A stretch of 38,352 nt of DNA, taken from Paracoccaceae bacterium. Lineage in GTDB: Bacteria; Pseudomonadota; Alphaproteobacteria; Rhodobacterales; Rhodobacteraceae. Under the pieces are notes generated by a model. It was not told the origin of the DNA. It worked only from the letters and a program-made list of their open reading frames with translations, and did no database searches. This document shows, in pieces, positions 31,014-37,531 of this stretch. The position numbers were made by a program, and so were the translations under genes. Position 1 is the first letter of the stretch; each line of letters opens with the position of its first letter. Location of the stretch: positions 1 through 38,352 of the forward strand of contig JACSRN010000159.1 in the NCBI GenBank assembly GCA_014879735.1. The letters run 5' to 3'.

Positions 31014-31625
31014 ATGGTCAGGATATCGGCAAAGGCGGCGGAACCTGTTTTCCGCGAACCCGAAGCTGTGGCAAAGCGGGATACGCTCAACTTCGGCAGC
31101 CTGCTGCGGGGGCGGCGGCGTTCGCTCAATCTGACCCTGAACGACGTTGCCACCAGGACGGGGCTGACCAAGGGCTTTCTCAGCGATATCGAGCGCGACA
31201 AGACCTCACCCTCGGTCGCCTCGCTGGTCAGCCTGTGCGACGCGCTGAACCTGCCGGTCGGCGATCTTTTCGCCGCCACGCGGAATGCGCTGGTGCGGGC
31301 GAGCGAACGCCAGCCGATCAAGTTCGGCGGCATCGGTGTATCGGACCACCTGCTGACCCCCAGCCATGGTGTAAGGATGCAGGCGATCTGGTCCGAAATT
31401 GCGCCCGGCGGCACCGCCGGCGAGCAACTCTATTCGCTGCGCTCGGAAGAGGAACTGGTGCTGGTGATCAGTGGCGATCTGGCACTGAACATCGAGGGGG
31501 ATGAGACGATTCTCCATGCTGGTGATTCCATCACCTTCGACCCCCGCCTGCCGCACAGCTTTCGCAACCCCTCGCAAGAGGTGGGGACGGCGGCGGTCTT
31601 CATCATGACGCCGCCGCCGGCCTGA
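31014..31625 (+). CDS. XRE-family transcriptional regulator with C-terminal cupin domain
   Basis: 203 residues. The HTH_3 domain spans about 28-86 (LLRGRRRSLNLTLNDVATRT, then GLTKGFLSDIERDKTSPSVA with the recognition helix). The cupin spans about 125-198 (GEQLYSLRSEEELVLVISGDL, HAGDSITFDPRLPHSFRNPS). The type is that of PuuR and related regulators, which sense amino compounds or their breakdown products through the cupin. The gene opens the cluster at 31014-37531 and is followed by a 114-bp intergenic region containing a matching operator. It is likely an autoregulated repressor of the importer and enzymes downstream; that is inference. The 20 residues before the HTH are not part of a domain, so a later start is conceivable. 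Confidence 0.9.
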   Translation: MVRISAKAAEPVFREPEAVAKRDTLNFGSLLRGRRRSLNLTLNDVATRTGLTKGFLSDIERDKTSPSVASLVSLCDALNLPVGDLFAATRNALVRASERQPIKFGGIGVSDHLLTPSHGVRMQAIWSEIAPGGTAGEQLYSLRSEEELVLVISGDLALNIEGDETILHAGDSITFDPRLPHSFRNPSQEVGTAAVFIMTPPPA

Positions 31626-31658
31626 AAGGCCCGGAAAATTCTGTTTCAGGTAACAAAG

Positions 31659-31673
31659 TTCGCAAATAGCGAA
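31659..31673. promoter_or_regulatory. Candidate operator 2 (TTCG-N7-CGAA) before the binding-protein gene
   Basis: The dyad TTCGCAAATAGCGAA has the same TTCG-N7-CGAA form as 30977-30991 and lies 66 bp before the start of the substrate-binding protein gene. A TTGACG hexamer (31681-31686) follows, but no good -10 box is spaced from it. Nearby, GAAAATTCTGTTT (31634-31646) and GAAATTTCTGTTG (31671-31683) form a 13-bp direct repeat with two mismatches that may be part of the control region. Confidence 0.55.
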
Positions 31674-31739
31674 ATTTCTGTTGACGGAACTGTCCGGCCG
31701 CTTCACCTTGCGTGACAACCGCAAAAAGGGAGTAGGCAC

Positions 31740-34028: not shown

Positions 34029-34069
34029 CCGGCAGGCCGGTTTCGTGTCAAATTCCCAAGGAGAAAGAC

Positions 34070-35071
34070 ATGGCTGATTTCGACATCGAACAGGCCAAGA
34101 AAGAGGTTGGCCGCTGGTACTGGCACGGTATCCCGACGTTCTTCCGCTGCGACTGGAACGAGGATCCCGCCGCGGCCGACATCGCGCTGATCGGCGTGCC
34201 GCACAGTTCCGGCAACGGCTCGACCGAGCGCGATCAGCATCTGGGTCCGCGCGCAGTGCGCAATATCTCGGCACTTTATCGCCGCAGCCATGGCCGTTTC
34301 GGAATCACGCCCTGGGATCTTGTGCAGATCAACGATGCCGGCGACACCCCGCTGCCCGAGGCGATGAACAATGACGTCTCGGTCCAGCATATCGAGGCCT
34401 ATGCCGCACAATTCGAAAAAGCCGGCACCCGGCTGGTGGCCATGGGCGGCGATCATGCAATCACCGGCCCGCTGGTCAAGGCCTGTGCGGGCGCGCATTC
34501 CTCGCTGACCGGCGGCCAGAAAGTGGCGCTGGTGCATTTCGACAGCCATACCGACACTCTGATGCACCTGCCGCATTGGCTTGGGAACAAGCGTTCGGCG
34601 GCGCATTGGGGGGCGTATCTGGTGCAGGAAGGCCATGTCGATGCCGCAAAATCCGCCCAGATCGGCATTCGCCCGAATGTCGGCACTGCGGGTTCGCTCA
34701 ACACCTCGGACGAGCTTGGCTATCGCATCATCGGCATGGATGAGGTCGAGGAGATCGGCTGGAAGGGTGTGGTCGAGATCCTGCGCGAGCGTATCGGTGA
34801 TGCACCGATCTATATCACCTTCGATCTCGACAGCCTCGATCCCTGCGATGCGCCGGGCGCGTCGAATCTGGAACCGGGCTATGCCGGAATCCGCATTGGT
34901 GATGCGGTCCGCATGCTTCAGGGCCTGCGCGGGTTGAATGTGGTGGGCGGCGATGTGGTCTGCCTGATCCCGACCAAGGATAACCCCAACAAGATCACGG
35001 CGCAGAACGCCATGGTCGTCATGTTCGAAATCCTGTCGCTGATGGCGGATTACATCCATTCGAACCGTTGA
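34070..35071 (+). CDS. Arginase/agmatinase superfamily hydrolase with altered substrate pocket
   Basis: 333 residues. The dimetal ligands are all present: His129 (GGDHA), Asp158, His160 and Asp162 (FDSHTDT), and Asp252 and Asp254 (FDLDSLD), so a Mn-type binuclear hydrolase is expected. Substrate-side motifs differ from agmatinase/guanidinobutyrase. The usual DVVEVNP is DVVCLIP here, so the glutamate that holds the guanidinium (Glu277 of arginase I) is Cys298. The usual HGTPFR is HWGAYL, and the GTGTPEPGG loop is GASNLEPGY. The fold and cluster suggest hydrolysis of a C-N bond in an imported compound, but guanidine specificity is not supported. ATG 34070 has an ideal AAGGAG site. It is followed at 9 bp by the dehydrogenase. 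Confidence 0.88.
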   Translation: MADFDIEQAKKEVGRWYWHGIPTFFRCDWNEDPAAADIALIGVPHSSGNGSTERDQHLGPRAVRNISALYRRSHGRFGITPWDLVQINDAGDTPLPEAMNNDVSVQHIEAYAAQFEKAGTRLVAMGGDHAITGPLVKACAGAHSSLTGGQKVALVHFDSHTDTLMHLPHWLGNKRSAAHWGAYLVQEGHVDAAKSAQIGIRPNVGTAGSLNTSDELGYRIIGMDEVEEIGWKGVVEILRERIGDAPIYITFDLDSLDPCDAPGASNLEPGYAGIRIGDAVRMLQGLRGLNVVGGDVVCLIPTKDNPNKITAQNAMVVMFEILSLMADYIHSNR

Positions 35072-35080
35072 GGCCCTGCC

Positions 35081-37531
35081 ATGTCCGTCCCCTCTCAAGC
35101 GGATGTCGTGATCGTCGGCGGCGGCATCGCCGGCTGCTCGATCGCCTATCATCTGACGAAGCTCGGCCTTACCGATGTGGTGCTGTGCGAGCGCAAGCAG
35201 TTGACCTGCGGCACCACCTGGCATGCGGCCGGGCTGGTGACGCAATTGCGCGCCTCGCAGCGGATGACCGAGCTTGCGCAATATACCGGCGAGTTGTTCG
35301 GCAAGCTTGAGGCGGAGACGGGCCAGGCCACGGGCTTCAAGCGCAACGGTTCGCTTCGGCTGGCCAAGACCCCGGCGCGCTATGAGGAACTGGCCCGCGG
35401 CGCCTCGATGGGGCGCAACTTCGGCCTGCCGGTCGGGGCGCTGACGCCCGACGAGATCAAGGAACGCTGGTCGCCGATCAGCACCGAAGGAATCGTCGGC
35501 GGCTTCTGGTTCCCCGACGACGGTCAGGTCAACCCCGCCGATGTCACCATGGCCTATGCCAAGGGGGCACGGATGGGCGGGGCGAAGATCCTCGAAGGGG
35601 TTTCCGTCACGCGAATCCTTGTCGCGAACGGGCGCGTCACCGGGGTGATGACCGATCAGGGAGAGATTGCGGCGAAGAAGGTCGTGATCTGCGGCGGCAT
35701 GTGGTCGCGCGATCTGGCTGCAGAGATCGGTGTCACCCTGCCGCTGCATGCGGCCGAGCATTTCTACGTGGTGACGGAGGCGATCCCGAATCTGCCGCGC
35801 GACCTGCCGGTCATGTTCATGGCCGACGAATGGTCCTACTACAAGGAAGACGCCGGCAAGCTGCTGGTGGGCTTTTTCGAGCCGGGCGCAAAACCCTGGG
35901 GGCAGAAGGGCATCTCCGGCGACTTCTGCTTCGACAGCCTGCCCGAGGATATCGACCATATCGGCCCCTATCTGGAACTGGCGATGAAACGTGTGCCGGT
36001 GCTGGAACGGACCGGGATCCAGTTGTTCTTCAACGGACCAGAGAGCTTTACCCCGGACAACCGCTATCATCTGGGCGAGGTGGCCGAGATCGACGGGCTA
36101 TTCTCGGCCACCGGGTTCAATTCGATCGGCATCCTGTCGTCGGGCGGCGTCGGCAAGAGCATGGCCTCCTGGATCGCCGACGGCCATCCGCCGGTGGAAC
36201 TGATCGACGTCGACGTGCGCCGCACGCAAAGCTTCCAGCGCAATCGCAAATATCTGGAAGACCGCTCGGTCGAGACCATCGGCTCGCTGTTCGACATGCA
36301 CTGGCCGGGGCTGCAGTTCGCCACCGCCCGCGGTGTCCGTCGTTCGCCCTTCCATGATCGCATGCTGGCCGCCGGCGCCTTCATGACCGAATTGGCGGGA
36401 TGGGAGCGCCCGGGCTTCTTCGGCACGCCTGAGGAACTGGCGCATGTCGAATATTCCTACGACCGTCCGAGCTGGTTCAAGAACGTGGCTGCGGAATGCC
36501 GCAACACCGCCGAGAATGTCTCGGTCTTCGATTACAGCTGCTTCGTGAAATACCGGGTCGAAGGGCCTGACGCGCTGACGGCGCTGAATCATGTCTGCGC
36601 CGGCGAATGCGATGTGGCCATCGGCAAGATCGTCTATACCCAATGGCTGAACCCGCGCGGCGGGATCGAGGCCGATGTGACGGTGATCCGGCTTGCCGAG
36701 AGCGAGTTTCTTGTGGTGACGGTGGCGGTGTCGCAGCGCCGCGACCTGGCCTGGTTCCGCCGCAACCTGCCCGCCGGACTGAACCTGCATGTCAGTGACG
36801 TGACCTCGGGGCTTGCGATGCTGTCGGTGATGGGGCCGAAGGCGCGCGATCTCATGCAGCGGGTTTCGCCCGACGATTTCTCGAACGAGGGATTCCCGTT
36901 CGGCACCAGCCGCGTGGTGGATCTGGGCTATGCGCGGGTGCGCGCCAGCCGACTGACCTTCGTGGGCGAGCTGGGTTTCGAACTACTGATCGAGTCCGAA
37001 TTCGCCGCCCATGTCTGGGAGGTCCTGGCCGAAGCCGGGCAGGATCTTGGCCTGAAACCCGCCGGCTACTTCGCCCTGAACGCGCTGCGGATGGAGAAGG
37101 GCTATCGCCACTGGGGCCATGACATCGGCGAGGAGGATACGCCCTTCAACGCCGGCCTCGGCTTTGCGGTGGCGATGGAGAAAGCCGCGGGCTTCATCGG
37201 CCGCGACGCGCTGGTGGCGCAGAAGGCCGAGGGCGTGGTAAAGCGCCGGCTGGTGCAGGTCATGCTGACCGGCGGGCCGGATGCGCCGATGCTCTATCAC
37301 TATGAACCGCTTATCCGCGATGGCGAGCTGGTCGGCTCGGTGATGTCGGGGGCTTACGGCCATCGGGTCGAGGCCTCGCTGGGGCTGGGCTATGTCAGGC
37401 ATCCCGAAGGCGTGCGGAAGGACTGGCTTGAGAGCGGAACCTGGGAGGTCGAGGTCGCCATGAAGCGCTACCCGGTCAAGGTGCAGTTCGGCCCCTGGTA
37501 TGATCCGAAAGGCGCGCGGATCCGCGCCTGA
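35081..37531 (+). CDS. FAD-dependent oxidoreductase with GcvT domains (dimethylglycine/sarcosine dehydrogenase-like)
   Basis: 816 residues. N-terminal FAD domain with dinucleotide motif [17 protein letters not shown] and the TWHAAGLV motif, where His48 matches the histidine that binds FAD covalently in dimethylglycine dehydrogenase. The substrate domain continues to about residue 400. The C-terminal half has the GcvT folate-binding domain ([32 protein letters not shown] [32 protein letters not shown]) and the barrel cap. Known relatives oxidise N-methyl groups of glycine derivatives and pass formaldehyde to tetrahydrofolate. Placed after the hydrolase with a 9-bp gap, it likely acts on that reaction's product. 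No electron-transfer flavoprotein gene is visible in the window. Confidence 0.93.

Follow-up and report, generated by a model that had tools for sequence, protein, structure and literature searches.

A six-gene block joining a Cys-type arginase-family hydrolase to a DMGDH-like dehydrogenase: a candidate pathway for N-methylated amidino acids in a Paracoccaceae bacterium

Ureohydrolases that release an N-methylated amine have been described, namely the dimethylguanidine and metformin hydrolases DmgH and MefH/MetCaCb; as set out in the accounts cited, they need an inactive second subunit together with nickel, and hypA/hypB adjoin their genes (PMC11399263, PMC11271267). MetCa is also described as requiring its residue E320 (PMC11271267), and in the agmatinase of E. 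coli the replacement of the guanidinium-binding Glu (Glu274) by Ala is reported to leave 1-2% of the activity (PMC8125230). On the demethylation side, the nicotine plasmid pAO1 is described as carrying MABO, FolD and PurU in one operon, in which MABO converts 4-methylaminobutyrate into γ-aminobutyrate (GABA) and methylene-tetrahydrofolate (methylene-THF) (PMC6214936). Here we describe a locus in a Paracoccaceae bacterium that places an arginase-family hydrolase directly before a dehydrogenase of the dimethylglycine dehydrogenase (DMGDH) type. The DNA analysed, called the window below, is a stretch of 38,352 nucleotides (NCBI GenBank assembly GCA_014879735.1, contig JACSRN010000159.1, positions 1 to 38,352 of the forward strand), in which six + strand open reading frames (ORFs) span positions 31014-37531.

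We propose that these six genes form a self-regulated catabolic cassette by which an N-methylated amidino acid is imported and cleaved, and its N-methylamino product demethylated onto tetrahydrofolate. We put this forward tentatively, its chance being in our view a little short of even. The XRE-cupin regulator would act at two TTCG-N7-CGAA sites, answering to the imported compound or its product, and an ABC importer of the polar amino acid type would take up the N-methylated amidino (guanidino) acid. In the next step, the Cys-type ureohydrolase would remove the amidino group from the methylated nitrogen, with urea and an N-methylamino acid as the products. The DMGDH-like enzyme would oxidise the latter, the methyl carbon passing into 5,10-methylene-THF and a primary amino acid remaining. 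As a first guess the substrate may be 4-(N-methylguanidino)butyrate, converted through 4-methylaminobutyrate to GABA; creatine, which would give sarcosine and then glycine, is a candidate close behind. The reactions, their order and the substrate are predicted from enzyme families and neighbouring genes.

Gene content and joint inheritance of the block

The block begins with the regulator gene (31014-31625, 203 aa), whose product carries the Pfam domains HTH_3 and Cupin_2. The genes that follow encode a periplasmic binding protein of family 3, the polar amino acid type (31740-32561, 273 aa; SBP_bac_3, PF00497), an ABC permease of the same type (32577-33302, 241 aa; BPD_transp_1, PF00528, and TIGR01726 above its cut-off), an ABC ATPase (33306-34028, 240 aa; ABC_tran, PF00005), the hydrolase (34070-35071, 333 aa; Arginase, PF00491, 191.6 bits) and the DMGDH-like FAD-GcvT dehydrogenase (35081-37531, 816 aa; DAO, FAO_M, GCV_T and GCV_T_C). 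All lie on the + strand, and the gaps between them are 114, 15, 3, 41 and 9 bp, in order. A preliminary description made from the letters of the stretch had given six genes running in a single direction, and the ORF listing and Pfam matches bear out this layout and its coordinates. The family 3 binding protein with its matching permease and ATPase makes up an importer of the polar amino acid type; the best model for the ATPase is GlnQ (310.2 bits, cut-off 379). At E 1e-60, the binding protein has its sole match among 248 genomes of the family in its own genome, and no match on plasmids at 60% or more; from these searches it appears peculiar to the six-gene unit.

The hydrolase is present at 94% identity or more in six of the 13 genomes of the genus (G000-G012, G000 being the genome of the window), named records among the holders being Pseudogemmobacter bohemicus, Paracoccus sp. 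IB05 and Rhodobacter sp. SGA-6-6, and all six holders carry the six genes in the same order. When the whole window was compared by blastn with the five other 20-kb loci, the matches comprised only the six-gene block, starting at about 30942-31129 and ending at 37506-37532 on the window, and one stray stretch of 44 bases. These five loci carry about 6 to 7.5 kb per flank, and the downstream flank in the window measures just 0.8 kb; among the five, matches of more than 600 bases away from the block occur only between L061 and L062. The six genes are inherited jointly as one block of DNA whose surroundings differ. Moreover, all six are under purifying selection, dN/dS not exceeding about 0.17 for any gene in any of five pairs (hydrolase: dN 0.025-0.034, dS 0.63-0.76). 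In the G012 cassette (L062), the regulator (6374-6778) matches only residues 4-132 of 203 and may be a broken gene.

Two palindromes of the form TTCG-N7-CGAA, one upstream of the regulator gene (TTCGGTATAGGCGAA, 30977-30991, no strand) and the other in the gap between the regulator and binding-protein genes (TTCGCAAATAGCGAA, 31659-31673, no strand), are kept at the same sites in 6/6 genus loci, the centre of the palindrome being variable. We take them as putative operators of the regulator. The count of the motif in the window (3, against 0.87 expected) is weak evidence by itself because 8 of 100 shuffles also reach at least 3; the evidence lies in placement and conservation. Since the block recurs in all six holders and the palindrome pair is conserved, the genes can be regarded as one regulated unit; the preliminary description, which had seen here a single regulated unit of uptake and breakdown with an arginase-fold and a DMGDH-like enzyme, is supported on this point. 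In another family, at locus L066 (G224), a regulator 54% identical to that of the window stands divergent to a hydrolase 58% identical, and the 96-base gap between them holds an 18-base form of the first palindrome with three mismatches. This near copy, spotted by eye before the shuffle test, is the sole match across 19.9 kb, and 0/200 shuffles contained one. The divergent pair with a near operator copy between its genes therefore indicates that regulator and hydrolase belong together.

The regulator scores 78.6 bits against the PuuR model, under the equivalog cut-off of 211, and the PuuR label was dropped. A guanidine riboswitch was not found upstream: the stretch 30400-31760 matched nothing in Rfam at E values up to 1, and at gathering scores the whole window gave one tRNA only, a tRNA-Pro (CGG) at 29626-29702, about 1.3 kb upstream of the operon. 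A 111-aa ORF antisense to this tRNA (29368-29703) is probably spurious. Promoter and terminator scans showed no excess over shuffles, and one listed match is the palindrome at 31659.

The hydrolase clade and the dehydrogenase relatives

The hydrolase was aligned with homologues from the fetched loci (98 rows). Among the 68 rows at 44% identity or more, six of them from the genus itself, the metal ligands H129, D158, H160, D162 and D252 are present in 68/68 and D254 in 67/68. Position 298, whose codon lies at 34961-34963 (+ strand), holds Cys in 67/68 of these rows; it holds Glu in 30/30 rows below 44% identity and in the five solved structures with printed alignments. This is the place of the guanidinium-binding Glu in other ureohydrolases, and MetCa E320 probably occupies the same position. 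The row without Cys298 is L050, whose frame is broken, and it is probably also the one that lacks D254; the gene concerned, in G173 (L074, about 5567-6697), has the break in its last third. The clade also differs in its first loop and in having three residues inserted after DxHxD, and a 37-row tree (22 Cys, 15 Glu) splits the two types with support 100/100. Against the agmatinase models the hydrolase scores 118 bits (TIGR01230, cut-off 174.3) and 172.8 bits (NF002564, cut-off 302), and the agmatinase label was dropped with both curated cut-offs missed. Its best match among solved structures is 3-guanidinopropionase (171.5 bits), guanidinobutyrase scoring 119.3.

The clade is spread over several families of the class and also has members in one Desulfovibrio metagenome-assembled genome and on plasmids of Ruegeria pomeroyi, Alisedimentitalea and Rhodococcus. 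At E 1e-60, matches were found in 13/385 genomes of the class, 4/398 of the phylum and 15/248 of the family, the own genome being counted each time; in three positive families the figures are 3/5, 12/23 and 22/61. Five annotated plasmid records label the proteins only as 'arginase family protein', and no characterised member was found among the literature matches listed or the solved structures compared. The clade is distinct and apparently uncharacterised. We consider it quite possible, if short of probable, that it is an undescribed arginase-fold group whose altered substrate site serves N-methylated or betaine-like amidino compounds, and that in this genus it has been joined to a THF-dependent demethylase as a novel pathway.

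The genes around the hydrolase outside the genus were tallied up to 7 kb per side in 60 clade loci and 18 Glu-type control loci. The 60 were drawn from 66 clade hits, leaving out plasmid H2 (a near copy of H1), H4 (the same place as G947) and G1055, G1057, G1028 and G1054 (internal stop or partial match); near copies such as L056 and L144 stay in, and seven of the 18 controls come from the genus itself. Genes for ProX and ProW stand near the hydrolase in 10/60 loci, MttB in 6/60, M20 in 7/60, a dimethylargininase-like protein in 5/60 and BCCT in 1/60, each against 0/18 controls; for GcvT the figures are 7/60 and 1/18. Taken as a union, the markers BCCT, ProX/ProW, MttB, DMGDH-like and GcvT occur in 20/60 against 1/18 loci (Fisher p 0.03) and, by genus, in 19/35 against 1/12 (p 0.007). 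ProV, a general ABC ATPase found in 28/60 loci and 6/18 controls, was excluded from this union, and the UREO_Glu row of the tally is unusable, its label also matching the hydrolase. The union p values are generous, because the markers were picked post hoc, the GcvT probe overlaps DMGDH-like genes, near copies are included and kinship is uncorrected.

In eight loci the order ProX-ProV-ProW-hydrolase is kept on one strand, with MttB ahead in two; in these (L143, L145) the MttB-family gene comes, among the labelled genes, immediately before ProX on the same strand. At L054, L056, L144 and L147, an ABC transporter of the glycine-betaine type is followed by two ureohydrolase genes in tandem, one Cys-type and one Glu-type, an arrangement reminiscent of the two-subunit metformin hydrolase; the matches listed from the R. 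pomeroyi transporter literature, as far as their excerpts extend, name no substrate for the L054 transporter. Behind the hydrolase, three loci of one genus (L058, L065, L067) carry genes for a tRNA_SAD (AlaX-like) protein and for a Dpp-type importer, and L072 (6645-10060) shows a MetE-like gene, a kynureninase-like gene and, immediately after the latter, the hydrolase. A flavoprotein adjoining the hydrolase at L066 was considered as an N-demethylase of the trimethylamine dehydrogenase type and discarded, because it matches best to 2,4-dienoyl-CoA reductase and, without reaching the cut-off, to a mycofactocin OYE model.

The dehydrogenase matches human DMGDH at 452.6 bits and dimethylglycine oxidase at 362.1 bits (phmmer). 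It carries the four domains in one chain, and His48 is invariant in 34/34 rows; its motif, WHAAG, is presumably the site of covalent FAD. Nine loci of relatives at 63-80% identity (L085-L093) were examined. ETF, PurU and FolD stand beside the relative in five of them (L085-L088, L091), and succinate-semialdehyde dehydrogenase (SSADH) is found in two, L088, with gabT annotated next to it, and L091, where it exceeds the subfamily cut-off. At L092 the neighbours are a PuuR-like regulator and an aldehyde dehydrogenase whose type is uncertain, both below cut-offs, and at L093 a PotD/PotF-like binding protein, likewise below cut-off. A more distant relative (42%), L096 on a plasmid of Arthrobacter sp. 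NicSoilE8, lies between purU and folD with SSADH nearby, and by analogy of these neighbours we take it as a presumed MABO. In G000 the DMGDH-like set is spread over contigs C88, C172, C154, C136, C30, C137, C2 and C155 besides the window, a strong expansion.

Weighing the proposed pathway against its alternatives

Several observations speak against the proposed route. Cys298 stands where ureohydrolases hold the guanidinium-binding Glu, whose replacement cripples the E. coli agmatinase. In G000, a draft assembly of 98.87% completeness, a urease alpha subunit was not found by a search that was positive in 4/14 genomes, and urea carboxylase exceeded its cut-off in only one of the 13 genus genomes (G004), not in G000; urea might also be excreted. 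The two enzymes are rarely neighbours outside the genus: a DMGDH-like gene lies within 7 kb of the hydrolase in only 3/60 loci (0/18 controls), and tblastn found the hydrolase in 0/13 loci of dehydrogenase relatives (L085-L093, L095-L098). Co-occurrence in homologous operons, on which the preliminary description had staked its coupling of the two enzymes, largely fails outside the genus, and their pairing is a genus-level combination. Moreover, 40 of the 60 hydrolase loci lack all five N-methyl/betaine markers, their named neighbours being highly varied, and the single markers are weak (p 0.046 to 1 by genus). As to the dehydrogenase, G000 encodes 12 near-full-length DMGDH-like proteins including that of the window, the next being 53% identical; seven of the nine close relatives have no clear SSADH or GABA gene beside them, with xylulokinase near L089, hydantoinase-type genes near L090 and no GABA link visible at either; and the tree does not place the L096 protein as sister to the window clade but joins it to L031, a paralogue from the genome of the window, by long branches whose position is marked as uncertain.

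Since the Glu is missing and urease was not found, the Cys-type enzyme is possibly not urea-releasing. It might hydrolyse an N-methylated amide, a formamide or a cyclic amidine, the dehydrogenase demethylating at a later step. The loss of the Glu in nearly the whole clade (67/68 rows) and the failure to find urease and a full urea carboxylase in the genome are consistent with this, as are clade neighbours of amide- or C-N-hydrolase types, namely HDAC-like (L075), nitrilase-type (L071) and DMFA2_C (L068). However, the dimethylargininase-like gene in five of the 60 loci and the Glu-type ureohydrolases in tandem with some clade members argue the other way, and we judge this alternative rather unlikely. 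Here the preliminary description, which had suggested hydrolysis of an amidine or amide-like bond, is borne out as to the arginase family; with the Glu replaced, amidine cleavage itself is a prediction. Far less probable in our view is a shared regulon without a linear route, in which both enzymes answer to one imported class of compounds and each uses a different member. Outside the genus the two enzymes do occur apart, each type in many gene contexts, but six genomes inherit all six genes as one block and the genes of the two enzymes lie 9 bp apart, both of which speak against it.

The choice of substrate raises a further alternative, in which the hydrolase cleaves creatine into sarcosine and urea in place of the classical creatinase, the dehydrogenase serving as a sarcosine dehydrogenase that produces glycine and methylene-THF. 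Creatine is the chemically simplest N-methylated guanidino acid; on a Rhodococcus plasmid, the surroundings of a clade member include a creatininase-family gene and a urea-carboxylase-associated one, besides a DAO-type oxidase and an NCS1 transporter, and the betaine-type transporters beside other clade members would fit a small zwitterion. However, the Rhodococcus creatininase scores 179.8 against a cut-off of 235, the human AGMAT, an assayed ureohydrolase, is reported to reject creatine (PMC9772407), and GABA-type genes stand beside some dehydrogenase relatives. We consider this route unlikely. The preliminary description had offered creatine as its example, which is still a possible substrate, but the relatives near SSADH (two of nine, one with gabT) point equally to 4-methylaminobutyrate. 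Because of these GABA-type neighbours in two loci, we lean slightly to 4-(N-methylguanidino)butyrate over creatine.

Altogether, import, amidino removal and THF-dependent demethylation make a plausible new pathway that is assembled from known enzyme families and centred on a distinct hydrolase clade. If this proves true, bacteria would have an added route for using N-methylated guanidino compounds as sources of carbon, nitrogen and one-carbon units, and a sizeable group now called 'arginase family protein' would be separated from the ureohydrolases of known specificity. The Glu-to-Cys change provides a single residue at which the question of hydrolase specificity is testable.

Comparison with described systems

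Neither a published pathway of this kind nor an arginase-fold creatine hydrolase appears among the literature matches listed. With the ureohydrolases GpuA and GbuA, the window hydrolase shares the arginase family and the motifs GGDH, DxHxD and DxD, but it has Cys in place of Glu, one residue more in the first loop and the 3-residue insert mentioned above. The likeness to DmgH and MefH/MetCaCb would lie in the release of an N-methylated amine. In contrast to those systems, the operon has one ureohydrolase among its six genes, without a second subunit and without hyp genes; a label as metformin or dimethylguanidine hydrolase was dropped, the gene for the second subunit and hypA/hypB not being in the operon.

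The dehydrogenase shares its domain order and conserved His with DMGDH and dimethylglycine oxidase, although the similarity to both is modest; the NicSoilE8 protein reaches 615 bits, a tblastn figure not strictly comparable with those from phmmer. This presumed MABO, at 42% identity, is the link to the MABO of pAO1; a difference may lie in the tree, which does not place the NicSoilE8 protein next to the clade of the window enzyme but marks its branch as long. The logic shared with the creatinase pathway (creatininase, creatinase and sarcosine oxidase) would be removal of the amidino group followed by demethylation. Creatinase is an M24 (pita-bread) enzyme, and in the operon described here its place is occupied by an enzyme of the arginase family.

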